A DNA stretch of 47,955 nucleotides from Chitinophaga pinensis (GTDB taxonomy: Bacteria > Bacteroidota > Bacteroidia > 2-12-FULL-35-15): positions 1 through 47,955 of the forward strand of contig CAMCYR010000001.1 of NCBI GenBank assembly GCA_945885475.1, in the 5' to 3' direction. The stretch's first letter is position 1; each line of letters begins with the position of its first letter. The notes below the pieces were generated by a model. It searched no databases. It was not told where the DNA came from and saw nothing but the letters and a program-made list of their open reading frames with translations. The position numbers and the translations under genes are program-made. This document shows positions 58-40,121 of this stretch, piece after piece.

Positions 58-65
58 TATTTTGT

Positions 66-146
66 GCGGATGAAGGGACTCGAACCCCCACGCCTTGCGG
101 CACCAGATCCTAAGTCTGGCGCGGCTGCCAATTACGCCACATCCGC
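66..146 (-). tRNA. tRNA-Leu (anticodon UAG)
   Basis: Read on the minus strand, 81 bases fold into a cloverleaf. The acceptor stem pairs GCGGATG with its complement at the 3' end. The D arm contains TAATTGGCAG, the anticodon loop CTTAGGA lies in the stem CCAGA/TCTGG, a variable arm follows (TGCCGCAAGGCGT), and the T arm is GGGGGTTCGAGTCCC. The long variable arm and the UAG anticodon identify a leucine tRNA reading CUA-family codons. No 3' CCA is encoded. The first bases of the gene also occur as an upstream duplicate at 225-232. Confidence 0.95.
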
Positions 147-34239: not shown

Positions 34240-37200
34240 ATGAAAAAAAATTTACTCATCCTAATGCTTTTTGTTAGCTTTTTTACCAAAGAAGCATTTG
34301 CCCAACCGGCAAATAATAACTGTGCAACTGCGCAAGCGATAGGTACACTTCCAACACCTGCTCCATGCTCAGGAACAGCTCCTTCTCTTGGTGCAGCTCT
34401 AAACGTACCTGGAACAATTGTGGGTGCCACTCCCGCTAGTCCGTATATTTACCAGCCAGGCTGTGCGGGTGGAGCCATGTCTGTTCCTGCCAATGATGTA
34501 TGGTATACGTTTACTGCAAGTAGTTACCAAGCGTCCATTACAGTTAATGCTACATTTTCAACAGTAAATATTGCGATGTATTCCGGAACGTGTGCTGCAT
34601 TGGGCGGCGGTGTTGGTGGTTGCGCTGTTGGAACAGCAGGCTCAGCAACTTTAACCGTGGAACAAATGGTACCCGGTACTACCTACTATTTGCAAGTTAG
34701 CGGTGGAACGGGTCAAACAGGTACATTCAATATGACCATCCGGAACAATAAAGATTGTGCAGATTGTTTAAATGCCTCAACTTTTACAGCAGCTCCTTTG
34801 CCTGTTGGAGGAATGTATTCGCCAGGACAAGTTGTAAACTTTTGTTATCATGTTGGTCAATACACCCAAATTAACACCAACTGGTTACATGGTGTTCAAT
34901 TAACCTTTGGTTCAGGATGGAATTTAGCCTCACTTACAACTTCACCTCCACCAACTTGCCAAACATTGCCTGCAGGTGGCACATGGGCATATTATCCTGG
35001 TGGCTGTACCTCGTCAGCTACAGGGGCTGTATTTGGTGCTGGTTTTTATTTTGACACTCCAGATGCTGGAACAAATCCAGGAAATAATTTTGGTGATAAT
35101 TGTACTGGTGTTTTGGGCGCTGGAACTTGGAATTTTTGTTTTTCAATTGCAGTTGCCGCAGGTTGCTCACCAGGTTCTAACTTAAATGTTACAGTAAATA
35201 CATCAGGAGATGGTGAGTCTGGATCATGGAGTAGTTTAGGATGTTTAGATGATCCCGCTTCTGTTTTACCTGCTGTTGGATCTTGCTGTGCTCCAACCGT
35301 ATCTTCTATTGCAGCTCCTTGCGGAGGAACAGGAAGTGCAACATCAACACCAGTAGGTGTTTCAGGGCCATATAATTATGTTTGGACGAATGCTGCAGGT
35401 ACTATTGTATCAACAGCTTCAGGAGTTGCTGGTGCAAATACAGCATCAGGATTACCTGCGGGAACATATACCGTAACGGTTACAAATACTCCCTTAGGTT
35501 GTGTCTTTACAAATACTGTAACAGTTGCCAGTGGAGTTGTACTTGCTACTCCTACAGCCGGAAGCAATAGTCCAGTCTGCGTTGGCGCTACTTTAAATTT
35601 AACAGCAGCAACTGTTGCTGGAGCAACTTACGCTTGGACTGGTCCGAGTGCTTTTGCATCTGCGCTACAAAACCCAAGTATTACAGGCGTTACCGCAAGT
35701 GCTGCAGGGACTTACACAGTAGTGGCAAGTGTTGCAGGGTGTACTGCTTCCTCTACGGTCACTGTCGTTATTAACCCAAATCCTACAGTAAACGTTCCTG
35801 GACCAATTACAGTTTGTAATGGCGGTAATGTTCCATTAACAGGATTCACGAGTGTTCCCCTTGGAGCAACGTTTTCGTGGACAAACTCCAACACGGCCAT
35901 TGGTTTAGGTGGGTCTGGTGTTGGAAGCGTCCCTGCATTCACAGCCACAAATGCAACAACTGCTGCCATAACGGGAACCATAACTGTTACACCAACTTTA
36001 GCAGGTTGTCCGGGGACACCGAACACTTATACAATCACAGTAAATCCTACTCCTACAGTTACAGTTCCGGCAAACATTACGGTTTGTAATGGCGGGAATG
36101 TTCCCGCAAGTGCTTATGTTAGTGCTCCCGCTGGTGCAACATATGCATGGACAAATACAAATGCTGCCATTGGATTAGCAGCTTCCGGAACAGGAAATAC
36201 ACCATCATTTACAGCAACCAACTTAACAGCAGCAGCAATCACCTCTACAATAACCGTTACACCAACGGTAGCTGGTTGTCCAGGAACACCGAATACGTAT
36301 ACAATCACTGTAAATCCAACCCCAACTGTTACTGTACCGGCAAACATTACTATTTGCAATGGCGGTAACATTCCGGCATCCGTATTTACAAGCGCTCCAG
36401 CAGGAGGAACATTTACATGGACTAACTCTAATCTGGCAATAGGACTTGCTGCATCCGGCGCAGGAAACACCTCAGCATTTGTAGCTACAAATTTAACAGG
36501 TGCTGCAATAACAGCAATCATTTCTGTGACACCAACTGTTGCAGGTTGTCCAGGAACACCAAACACCTATACAATCACTGTTAATCCTACACCCGCTGCT
36601 CCCACTGCTTTAGGAGCTTCTGTTTGCATAAACAACGCAACAACTTTAACTGCAAGTGCTCCAGGAGGAACATACGAATGGTTTGACGCTCCTGTTGCTG
36701 GAACATTGTTAATTACAAATGCCAGCTATACGACTCCACTTTTAACTTCAACTACAACGTACTATGTTCAAACGACAATCCTTGGTTGTACTGGCCCATT
36801 AACTCCTGTTACTGTTACTATTGCTCCTGGATTAGCTGTCAATGCTGGTCTAGATGACACACTTTGCTTTGGAGGTAATACAACTTTGAACGTCACTCCG
36901 AATGGACTGGGCTATACTTATGTTTGGACTGCTGCTGCAGGTTTAAGCAGTACAACTATTTTTAATCCAGTTGCAAGCGCTGCAACAACTACCAATTACA
37001 CCGTTACAGTTACTGATGCAAGTGGATGTGTTGGAACAGATAACGTAACAGTTTATGCTGACCCGCAAATTAATGTTGCCATTGCGGGTATTGATGTGAC
37101 TTGTTTTGGTGCTTGTAATGGACAAACAATTTGTATTCCCACAGGAGGAACTTCTGGCTATACCTATTTATGGAATTCAGGATGTATCGCTGCATCATGT

Positions 37201-38832
37201 GGCTCTCTTTGTCCGGGTAGCTATTCAGTAACCGTAACCGACTCATGGGGCTGCACAGCAACAAATGATACATCCATTATTCAACCTACGTTATTAGCGG
37301 CTTCAATAACTGCATCCTCTAATGCAAGTTGCAATGGTGTATGTGATGGAACTGCAACAGCAGGAGGAAACGGAGGAACAATTGGCGCGGCTTATGGCTA
37401 TTCTTGGAACACAGTTCCTGCTCAACTTACTGCAACAGCAACCGGACTCTGTAATGGGAACTATACCTGTACAATCACGGATGCCAATAGTTGTACCGCA
37501 ACAACTAGTGTAATAATTACGGAGCCATCAATAGTTGTAATTGCACCTATCGTTTCACCAACATTATGCTTTGGAGGCAGTACTACATTAACTGCAATTG
37601 CCAGTGGAGGAAATGGTGGACCATATACCTATTCATGGTCACCAGCAACAGGATTAAGTGCAACGAATATTGCAAATCCTACTGCTTCACCAGTTGCAAC
37701 AACGGTTTATACAGTAAATGCTTTCGATGCGAATGGTTGTCCGGCTGCTGCAGTAAACGTTACCGTTACTATAAACCCGCCAATGACTGTTGTTGCTAAC
37801 GGATCAACATCTATTTGTCCGGGAGGCTCAACTCCTATTTCTGCTTTAGCTTCATTAGGTTCAGGTGGACCATATACTTATTCATGGTTACCAGCAACAG
37901 GGCTAAGCAATGCAGGTATTGCCAATCCAACGGCCTCGCCAGTTACAACTACAACTTATACGGTAACGGCTAACGATGGTTGTTCTCCAGCTTTAACTGC
38001 AACAGTAACAGTCACTATCCTCCCTATTCCTGTCGTTGTTTTTTCAGGAGATTTACTTTCAGGATGTTCTCCAGTATGTGTTAATTTTACGGATGCATCA
38101 ACAGTTGCAGGTAGCACAATTGCAACATGGAATTGGACATTTGGAGACGGAACAACATTCGTTGGACAAAATCCTCCTGTGCATTGTTACACGAATACCG
38201 GTCAATATACTGTTGGATTAACAGTTACTTCAACATTAGGAGGTTGTGTTGCGACCGATACCTACCTAAACTACATTACGGTATTTCCAAACCCTGTTGC
38301 AGAATTTACAGCATCTCCAAACCCTGCAACGGTGACCGAACCGACTGTTAATTTTACCGATCAATCCTCTTCAATCGTTCCAATTACTTCGTGGACCTGG
38401 GATTTTGGCGATGGAAGTTTAAATGGGACGAATTCAAATCCAACACATCTTTATCCATCTATAGTTGACGGAACATATACAGTAACATTAACAGTTGTTG
38501 ACGCTAATGGTTGTACCGCCGCTGTTTCTCATCCAATCGTAATTGCACCTGAATTCACCTTCTTTATTCCAAATGCTTTTTCTCCTAACGATGATGGCAT
38601 TAACGATTTCTTTTACGGAAAAGGAGTTGGCATAACGAAATATGAATTGTTTGTATTCGACCGTTGGGGTAATTTAATTTTCTTTGCAGATGAAATAAAT
38701 AAATATTGGGATGGCAAAGCAAATCATGGAAAAGATATAGCGCAACAAGATGTTTATGTTTGGAAAGTGAAATTAACTGACGTATTCGATAAGAAACACA
38801 ATTACATCGGAACTGTTACTATTGTAAAATAG
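34240..38832 (+). CDS. Giant multi-domain surface adhesin with gliding-type C-terminal domain
   Basis: A 1530-residue protein, probably secreted by T9SS. Domains in order: signal peptide ending AFAQ (residue 22); a beta-sandwich module (PANDVWYTFTAS...YYLQVSGGTGQ) to about 170; a Cys-rich segment; three nearly identical 90-residue Ig/PKD-like repeats (nt 35781-36590); an Ig-like unit with TYEWFDAPVAG; SprB-type repeats with CNG, YSVTVTDSWGC and YTCTITDANSC (nt 37080-37540); two repeats with YSWSPATGLS and YSWLPATGLS; two PKD domains (WNWTFGDGT, WTWDFGDGS); and the CHU_C-type C-terminal domain FFIPNAFSPNDDGINDFFYG...VYVWKVKLTD (last 90 residues). That tail is the type B sorting domain of gliding-motility and adhesin proteins. 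Lysine and charged residues are rare until the tail. It probably mediates surface attachment. Confidence 0.92.
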   Translation: MKKNLLILMLFVSFFTKEAFAQPANNNCATAQAIGTLPTPAPCSGTAPSLGAALNVPGTIVGATPASPYIYQPGCAGGAMSVPANDVWYTFTASSYQASITVNATFSTVNIAMYSGTCAALGGGVGGCAVGTAGSATLTVEQMVPGTTYYLQVSGGTGQTGTFNMTIRNNKDCADCLNASTFTAAPLPVGGMYSPGQVVNFCYHVGQYTQINTNWLHGVQLTFGSGWNLASLTTSPPPTCQTLPAGGTWAYYPGGCTSSATGAVFGAGFYFDTPDAGTNPGNNFGDNCTGVLGAGTWNFCFSIAVAAGCSPGSNLNVTVNTSGDGESGSWSSLGCLDDPASVLPAVGSCCAPTVSSIAAPCGGTGSATSTPVGVSGPYNYVWTNAAGTIVSTASGVAGANTASGLPAGTYTVTVTNTPLGCVFTNTVTVASGVVLATPTAGSNSPVCVGATLNLTAATVAGATYAWTGPSAFASALQNPSITGVTASAAGTYTVVASVAGCTASSTVTVVINPNPTVNVPGPITVCNGGNVPLTGFTSVPLGATFSWTNSNTAIGLGGSGVGSVPAFTATNATTAAITGTITVTPTLAGCPGTPNTYTITVNPTPTVTVPANITVCNGGNVPASAYVSAPAGATYAWTNTNAAIGLAASGTGNTPSFTATNLTAAAITSTITVTPTVAGCPGTPNTYTITVNPTPTVTVPANITICNGGNIPASVFTSAPAGGTFTWTNSNLAIGLAASGAGNTSAFVATNLTGAAITAIISVTPTVAGCPGTPNTYTITVNPTPAAPTALGASVCINNATTLTASAPGGTYEWFDAPVAGTLLITNASYTTPLLTSTTTYYVQTTILGCTGPLTPVTVTIAPGLAVNAGLDDTLCFGGNTTLNVTPNGLGYTYVWTAAAGLSSTTIFNPVASAATTTNYTVTVTDASGCVGTDNVTVYADPQINVAIAGIDVTCFGACNGQTICIPTGGTSGYTYLWNSGCIAASCGSLCPGSYSVTVTDSWGCTATNDTSIIQPTLLAASITASSNASCNGVCDGTATAGGNGGTIGAAYGYSWNTVPAQLTATATGLCNGNYTCTITDANSCTATTSVIITEPSIVVIAPIVSPTLCFGGSTTLTAIASGGNGGPYTYSWSPATGLSATNIANPTASPVATTVYTVNAFDANGCPAAAVNVTVTINPPMTVVANGSTSICPGGSTPISALASLGSGGPYTYSWLPATGLSNAGIANPTASPVTTTTYTVTANDGCSPALTATVTVTILPIPVVVFSGDLLSGCSPVCVNFTDASTVAGSTIATWNWTFGDGTTFVGQNPPVHCYTNTGQYTVGLTVTSTLGGCVATDTYLNYITVFPNPVAEFTASPNPATVTEPTVNFTDQSSSIVPITSWTWDFGDGSLNGTNSNPTHLYPSIVDGTYTVTLTVVDANGCTAAVSHPIVIAPEFTFFIPNAFSPNDDGINDFFYGKGVGITKYELFVFDRWGNLIFFADEINKYWDGKANHGKDIAQQDVYVWKVKLTDVFDKKHNYIGTVTIVK
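35781..36590 (+). repeat. Three tandem 270-bp coding repeats in the adhesin
   Basis: Three successive units with a period of 270 bases: the marker TTTGCAATGG/TTTGTAATGG falls at about 35813, 36083 and 36353. Each encodes about 90 residues containing VCNGGN(V/I)P and ending CPGTPNTYTITVNPTP. Units 2 and 3 are closest; unit 1 lacks a Pro-Thr pair at its start. High nucleotide similarity suggests recent duplication and a site of copy-number change. Confidence 0.85.
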
Positions 38833-39040
38833 GTGATGAAGTGATGAAGTAATGAAGTAATGAAGTAATGAAGTAATGAAGTAATGAAGTAATGAAGTGA
38901 TGAAGTAATGAGGTGATGAGGTGATGAGGTGATTAAGTAATGAAGTGATGAAGTGATGAAGTGATGAGGTGATGAGGTGATGAGGTGATGAAGTAATGAA
39001 GTGATGAAGTGATGAGGTGATGAGGTGATGAGGTGATAAA
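38833..39040 (+). repeat. Octamer tandem array (GTRATGAR)
   Basis: Twenty-five consecutive octamers in perfect phase (38833-39032), then a degenerate one (GTGATAAA, 39033-39040). Units are GTGATGAA, GTAATGAA, GTGATGAG or GTAATGAG, with one GTGATTAA; there is no insertion or deletion over 200 bases. It starts immediately after the adhesin stop codon and ends at a terminator, so it is transcribed as a 3' untranslated region. Confidence 0.95.
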
Positions 39041-39086
39041 AAAAGAGTGCTGAAATTTAGATTTCAGCACTCTTTTTATTTTTTAC
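39037..39086. terminator. Bidirectional terminator between the adhesin and pdhB
   Basis: The stem GAGTGCTGAAAT pairs with ATTTCAGCACTC across TTAG, flanked by A and T runs. It can stop transcription from both convergent genes. Confidence 0.92.
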
Positions 39087-39117
39087 AGATGGAATATTTC
39101 CTTTATATCTTTACTAC

Positions 39118-39133
39118 CTTATCACTTAATCAC
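39118..39133 (-). repeat. Two octamer copies behind pdhB, opposite orientation
   Basis: Read on the minus strand: GTGATTAA then GTGATAAG, in 8-base phase, followed by the looser GTAGTAAAG. They belong to the same octamer family as the array at 38833 and start four bases after the pdhB stop codon. Confidence 0.6.
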
Positions 39134-39137
39134 CTTG

Positions 39138-40121
39138 CTATTTCTTCACATACATTACCTCTTTCACAGCTTTTATAACACGCTCAACATTTGGCAAGGA
39201 TGCTTCAATTAAAGTTGGGGCATAAGGCAACGGAACATCAGCAGTAGTAATTCGAATAACAGGAGCATCTAAGTAATCAAATGCTTCTTTTTGCACCTTA
39301 AAAGCAACTTCAGTAGCAATAGAACCTAGTGGCCAAGCCTCTTCTACAATAACAAGACGATTCGTTTTTTTTACAGAAGTAATAACTGTTGCGTAATCAA
39401 TCGGGCGAATGGTTCTTAAATCAATCACTTCAACACTGATTCCTTCTTTCTCCAATTCAACAGCAGCAGATAAAGCTTGTTTCATAATTTTACCAAAAGA
39501 AACAATTGTTACATCTTTTCCTTCGCGCTTAATATCGGCAACGCCAATAGGAATTAAATATTCACCTTCAGGCACTTCCCCTTTGTCACCATACATTTGT
39601 TCACTCTCCATAAATATAACAGGATCGTTATCACGGATAGCCGACTTTAAAAGTCCTTTGGCATCGTAAGGATTAGAAGGAACAATTACTTTTAAACCGG
39701 GACAGTTGGCATACCAATTATCAAAAGCTTGTGAATGCTGGGAACTAAGCATCCCTGCAGAAGCAGTAGCACCACGAAAAACGATAGGAACAGGAAATTG
39801 ACCGCCACTCATGCTCATCATTTTTGCAGCAGAGTTAATTATCTGATCAATAGCCACCAAAGAAAAGTTAAAGGTCATAAATTCAACAATAGGCCGAAGT
39901 CCGTTAACGGCAGAACCAATTGCAATACCGGTAAAACCAAGCTCTGCAATGGGTGTATCAATTACTCTTTTTTCACCAAACTCAGCAAGCATACCTTTAC
40001 TTACTTTATAGGCTCCATTATACTCAGCAACCTCTTCCCCCATCAAATACACTTTTTCATCTCTACGCATTTCTTCATTCATTGCTTCACGAAGTGCTTC
40101 ACGAAATTCAATTGTTCTCAT
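39138..40121 (-). CDS. pdhB: Pyruvate dehydrogenase E1 component, beta subunit
   Basis: A 327-residue thiamine-diphosphate enzyme subunit. It begins MRTIEFREALREAMNEEMRR; MGEEVAEYNGAYKVSKGM carries the glutamate that activates the cofactor, and DTPIAELGFTGIAIGSAVNG, GMLSSQHSQAFDNWYANCPG and RTIRPIDYATVITSVKKTNR are typical of E1-beta. With E1-alpha, E2 and E3 it converts pyruvate to acetyl-CoA. The partner genes are not in the window. EGKDVTIVSFGK and VEEAWPLGS favour the pyruvate over the branched-chain enzyme, but the distinction is not absolute. Confidence 0.93.
   Translation of the reverse strand: MRTIEFREALREAMNEEMRRDEKVYLMGEEVAEYNGAYKVSKGMLAEFGEKRVIDTPIAELGFTGIAIGSAVNGLRPIVEFMTFNFSLVAIDQIINSAAKMMSMSGGQFPVPIVFRGATASAGMLSSQHSQAFDNWYANCPGLKVIVPSNPYDAKGLLKSAIRDNDPVIFMESEQMYGDKGEVPEGEYLIPIGVADIKREGKDVTIVSFGKIMKQALSAAVELEKEGISVEVIDLRTIRPIDYATVITSVKKTNRLVIVEEAWPLGSIATEVAFKVQKEAFDYLDAPVIRITTADVPLPYAPTLIEASLPNVERVIKAVKEVMYVKK

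Follow-up and report, generated by a model that had tools for sequence, protein, structure and literature searches.

Cyanobacterial STRR repeats are short tandem heptamers dispersed over the chromosome, with an unclear role, and to our knowledge no inward-only arrangement has been seen among them. The octamer arrays described here are likewise dispersed short tandem repeats, but they differ from these heptamers in the length of the unit and in forming inward-only pairs. The DNA uptake sequences of Neisseriaceae are also short words, which often stand as inverted pairs at terminators and whose dialects vary between species. They occur as single or paired words in very many copies rather than as tandem arrays, whereas the octamer class has few loci and long arrays.

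TAACTGA direct repeats are found in Beggiatoaceae, Cyanobacteria and some Bacteroidetes, with long arrays in some of the last; in Beggiatoaceae these heptamers are mostly 'forward' and lie just upstream of start codons (MacGregor 2015, PMC4679880). The octamer arrays resemble them in being short intergenic tandem words that are dispersed, patchily distributed over distant lineages and rich in stops on one strand. In contrast to the fixed heptamer, the octamers (GTRATKRR or GTTYAYTR) have fixed and variable positions, and their arrays stand at both stops and starts, read away from the gene and form inward pairs. Tandem-repeat DNA is also made by DRT10, as cDNA with unit sequences that vary between systems and, in one case, a 9-nt period (PMC12632851). 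The octamer arrays share the short period of such DNA but are chromosomal. The nearest described relatives are the TAACTGA heptamers and the cyanobacterial STRR repeats. A literature search for the literal array sequences, with most subscription papers outside its reach, found no paper, and a search on octanucleotide repeats found nothing on this class of arrays beyond PMC4679880.

The locus studied lies between an adhesin gene and a convergent pdhB (Table 1) in the window, that is, the whole stretch of 47,955 nucleotides that was analysed. The preliminary description of this DNA had reported an indel-free octamer array directly after the adhesin stop codon, octamers of the same family behind pdhB on the opposite strand with a terminator between the two sets, variation almost limited to A/G at positions 3 and 8, and block repeats of higher order, and all four observations were confirmed. 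The array has no indel and its first base is immediately 3' of the adhesin TAG; 26 octamers were counted, the exact number being uncertain because the source genome is a draft (84 contigs) and typical short reads are shorter than the array. GTRATGAR is matched by 24 of these units, the exceptions being GTGATTAA (38929) and the last unit, GTGATAAA (39033). Positions 1, 2, 4, 5 and 7 are invariant, while position 3 is G17/A9, position 6 G24/T1/A1 and position 8 A17/G9. The higher-order repetition is genuine: besides a period of 8 with 25.6 copies, TRF gave a 56-bp unit (3.7 copies, 91% match). The pdhB-side octamers, which lie on the minus strand, begin 4 nt past the pdhB TAG (39138-39140). Runs of three exact units are confined to three places in the 3.06-Mb draft genome, which excludes a chance origin of the array. 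At gathering score, an Rfam search of the window returned a tRNA only, and the array matches no family. Directly beside a tRNA gene of the window (65-146, minus strand) there is another repeat, an 86-bp unit present 2.1 times (139-315), which overlaps the tRNA end.

Table 1. Features of the adhesin-pdhB gap and the genes that flank it (positions in the window)
Feature	Position	Strand	Description
Adhesin ORF	34240..38832	+	Large surface adhesin, 1530 aa; PKD, Ig_7, C-terminal CHU_C type IX secretion signal; stop TAG 38830-38832
Octamer array, adhesin-side arm	38833..39040	+	26 in-phase units GTRAT(G/T/A)AR; 56-bp higher-order repeat
Hairpin terminator	39040..39077	.	17-pair stem closed by a 4-nt loop; strong on either strand, with T tracts on both
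pdhB-side arm	39118..39133	-	Two octamers, GTGATTAA GTGATAAG; inverted with respect to the main array
pdhB ORF	39138..40121	-	Pyruvate dehydrogenase E1 beta subunit type, 327 aa; Transket_pyr + Transketolase_C; convergent with the adhesin gene

Pairs of units with at most one mismatch form a handful of clusters in the source genome, and a 400-kb sample of it contained no second octamer array of comparable size. Relaxed searches placed GTRATKRR in about six to seven of its gaps (C1, which is the adhesin-pdhB gap, C4, C6, C7, C22, C54 and C71). C6 and C7 have long arrays in which 7-bp words are mixed with 8-bp ones. In C4 the array adjoins a gene start (729 aa, opposite strand), and the sister genome G007 has this array there too; the C7 array sits between divergent genes. 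A genome-wide rule by which such arrays always follow stop codons in sense orientation, which the preliminary description had put up for checking, therefore fails. Contig C5 of the source genome also contains a 60-bp tandem repeat with AAATCTGAGT sub-repeats (8 copies, 96% match; L308, 18615-19099).

Beyond the source genome, the spread of the words was surveyed with one draft genome per species. GTRATKRR (family 1) was present in 7 of 36 genomes of the genus, 21 of 394 genomes of a phylum sample and 12 of 82 genomes of family f90, which belongs to another class; matches to the reversed control pattern were few in each set. GTTYAYTR (family 2) is commoner in the genus (16 of 36 genomes) and its control gave no match. 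A class-wide search whose pattern required the array to be followed by a base other than G was over-strict; it returned the source genome alone and is uninformative on spread. Arrays in the genus and in f90 combine different words, which is not expected from simple slippage of one unit. In one gap of G016 (L183) two further word types occur, GTGATTGG being mixed with GGAAATGG and followed by an array resembling ATTCGTAGATTCGTTATTCGTAG. Family-2 arrays (L350-L370 and other loci of the genus) are often followed by recurring tails, for example ACCCGTTCTGTGTG or GCTGTGTG. An inward GTTYAYTR pair in G014 (L387, 2466-2560) lies just upstream of an RNase P RNA-like sequence (GAGGAAAGTCCGGGC). At least three GTRATKAR units were also found in each of 15 IMG/VR contigs classed as viral (L255-L269).

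Placement relative to gene edges was measured on arrays collected with their flanks, distances to ORF ends being taken in the orientation of the array. Among the 90 genus arrays with both flanks, the gene edge was nearer to the 5' end in 75 and to the 3' end in 14 (p = 3e-11, with arrays treated as independent and a few orthologous arrays counted more than once). A gene edge lay within 20 nt of the 5' end 50 times and of the 3' end 8 times. Stops taken separately gave 31 versus 5 and starts 19 versus 3, start-side distances being approximate as ORF starts were called mechanically; this is unlike the forward, upstream placement of TAACTGA. Family f90 repeats the 5'-end rule (15 versus 1). Among 31 sense arrays there are 12 in which the TAG stop takes its last base from the opening G of the array. 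ATG is part of the reverse complement of the family-2 word, and several genes have their called start within the first word.

Most gaps with arrays contain a single one. Where runs on opposite strands share a gap they point inward, with 25 such pairs in about 20 distinct gaps and no outward pair. Between tandem genes the whole class shows no bias towards the sense orientation (25 sense, 31 antisense), and the sense-after-stop rule was rejected for it; the bias holds in family 1 alone (15 versus 2), family 2 giving 10 versus 29. That rule is replaced by a broader one, in which the words read from the gene edge, whether stop or start, into the gap. The class consists of 8-bp, sometimes 7-bp, intergenic minisatellites at gap edges, the G/T-rich strand of which mostly reads away from the edge.

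The region behind pdhB was fetched from genomes of the genus for comparison. GTRATKRR flanks the terminator on either side in G000, G007 and G003. At this locus the array of the sister species G007 is longer and irregular, and both arms of G003 consist of GTGATAAG GTGATTGG GTGATAA(A/G), a likeness equalled by none of 35 arms at other loci. GTTYAYTR occupies both sides in G035 and G011, and the more distant G026 has, by eye, yet other words on both sides. In G017 a 25-bp repeat follows pdhB, the gap sequence being the same as record JAHEYB010000009.1. The gap is short and contains the terminator only in G024, G031, G028, G019 and G010. Gap length is 67-105 in terminator-only cases and 124-400 in array-bearing ones. 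Across these orthologous gaps the place is kept, and length, order and even word family change. The clear array-bearing cases have one repeat family on both sides, in agreement with the earlier proposal that the repeat spread to both genes.

Alignment of the G035 gap with that of G011 scored 107 inverted and 40 direct, and the tails beside the arrays match across sides, swapped (p about 0.002 and 0.004). From the alignment, the gap may have been inverted in this sister pair. Taken with the switch of family in both arms, the inverted alignment indicates that the arms change together and that the gap may have flipped, both of which are expected from exchange between inverted arms. Shared word order within the arm pairs of a gap exceeded that of other loci only in L272 and L198 (2 of 7 pairs); since most pairs show no such excess, copying between arms is not supported as a general rule.

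We consider it fairly likely that this locus belongs to a dispersed class of unstable minisatellites, which grow at gap edges and reach the opposite edge as inverted arms. As in minisatellites (VNTR), the units of the array are arranged head to tail with higher-order duplication (TRF periods 8 and 56), and length differs at the same locus between G000 and G007, both in the adhesin-pdhB gap and at the other places common to the two genomes. Of the interpretations in the preliminary description, the best fit, the longer irregular array of G007 included, is a minisatellite prone to slippage that reached both genes; a role as a 3' UTR element in stability or termination is not supported. Units would multiply by replication slippage and unequal exchange. 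Sequence would cross to the opposite gap edge by inverted exchange, through recombination of the inverted arms with each other or a template switch across the terminator hairpin, and such exchange would give both arms the same words and could flip the gap. Coding sequence would be a barrier to this spread, so that arrays would tend to begin exactly at a stop or start codon. Slippage alone leaves unexplained the presence of the same words at many loci and in another class, the position-limited variation and the absence of outward pairs.

The inverted arms could instead be kept because their pairing lengthens the central hairpin, making the gap an extended bidirectional terminator that blocks convergent read-through or protects 3' ends. 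Folding of the whole-gap RNA beats shuffles (z = -4.9); in the predicted structure the pdhB-side octamers pair, around the terminator, with units from the 3' part of the array. Both the joint switching of the arms between species and the finding of inward pairs only are in keeping with this. However, the core hairpin is already very stable alone (predicted -22.5 and -21.7 kcal/mol for the two strands), and with two units facing 26 most of the array has no partner. Many relatives lack arms, most array-bearing gaps have one array only and many arrays adjoin gene starts. In addition, any inverted pair can form a stem, and pairing does not require the G/T strand to read inward. An extended terminator is therefore unlikely. 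Nor is a function in termination or mRNA stability supported: about half of the arrays between tandem genes are antisense and adjoin gene starts, many relatives retain the convergent gap and its terminator without an array, and the adhesin-side array by itself shows no structure in RNA folding. Judged from the folding, pairing between the array and the pdhB side is physically possible in read-through RNA, and a minor effect on termination is possible.

It is also conceivable, but unlikely, that a phylum-wide strand-specific process or recognition system writes degenerate octamers outward from gene edges into gaps, with dialects that differ between species and a geometry that is kept.

Constraint on the unit was measured on the free middle unit between two exact units, which avoids search bias. 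Family 1 keeps G1, T2, A4 and T5 (≥ 92%) and family 2 keeps G1, T2, T3, A5 and T7 (≥ 95%), the remaining positions being mixed in both. This pattern reflects either recognition or the reshuffling of a shared pool of old word variants. In the former case the words would be sites for a DNA- or RNA-binding protein or for a complementary RNA that tolerates G-U pairs, fixed positions being contacts and variable ones tolerated purine or pyrimidine swaps. Such position-locked degeneracy in units of both families that the search left unconstrained, and the same words in another class, speak for recognition. The sporadic occurrence of the words among close relatives and their few loci per genome speak against it, the fixed A in family 1 (position 4) and in family 2 (position 5) is at odds with simple G-U tolerance, and loci drawing on an ancestral pool of variants would give the same pattern; a recognition array is thus quite unlikely. 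A reading of the class as stop-codon arrays was rejected. Every unit of the window array contains two stops, but the second is kept in only 61% of all family-1 units, position 1 is fixed though irrelevant to stops, and many arrays are antisense at starts.

An inserted mobile element of the MITE or REP type, with octamers as its terminal inverted repeats, would account for inverted, inward arms and for the tails ACCCGTTCTGTGTG and GCTGTGTG that recur next to family-2 arrays in G035 and G032. Inward arms are present in about 20 gaps; the cores between them differ, apart from some tails that recur in family 2. Such an element is nevertheless improbable. Array-free relatives have the terminator at the place where it stands here between the arms, and this speaks against its arrival with an insertion; most gaps contain one array, and array edges fall on stop or start codons and not on a fixed target sequence. 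Y1_Tnp genes occur in genomes with and without arrays; a link to RAYT/Y1 transposases was rejected, as Y1_Tnp was present in 29 of 36 genomes and none was found in the array-bearing G011. Telomerase-like fill-in, in which an octamer-adding enzyme lengthens the 3' ends of broken gene edges before these are joined, matches the array geometry, and bacterial reverse transcriptases that make tandem-repeat DNA exist (DRT10, PMC12632851), but it is most improbable: array-free relatives also have the terminator that lies between the arms, so that simple refilling does not describe the gap, and fill-in is largely refuted for known reverse transcriptase families, RVT_1 being present in several array-free genomes and not found in the array-bearing G000 (99% complete), G003, G035, G032, G011 and G015.

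As one locus of the minisatellite class, the array, for all its unusual regularity, is probably a mutational product and not a control element of the adhesin gene. For adhesin and pdhB it is most likely a near-neutral tail before the hairpin that ends both transcripts, and this hairpin alone should end them. The arms may lengthen the hairpin in read-through RNA; selection for such lengthening is not required.

Intergenic tandem repeats in bacteria are usually dismissed as slippage noise. Here, about a hundred arrays of two word families in two classes obey one geometric rule, which any mechanism must reproduce, and an orthologous gap that exchanges its word family on both sides together is part of this countable pattern. 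Such arrays should not be taken for 3' UTR regulators of the preceding gene. The class is a natural test bed for the origin and spread of inverted arms around terminators.
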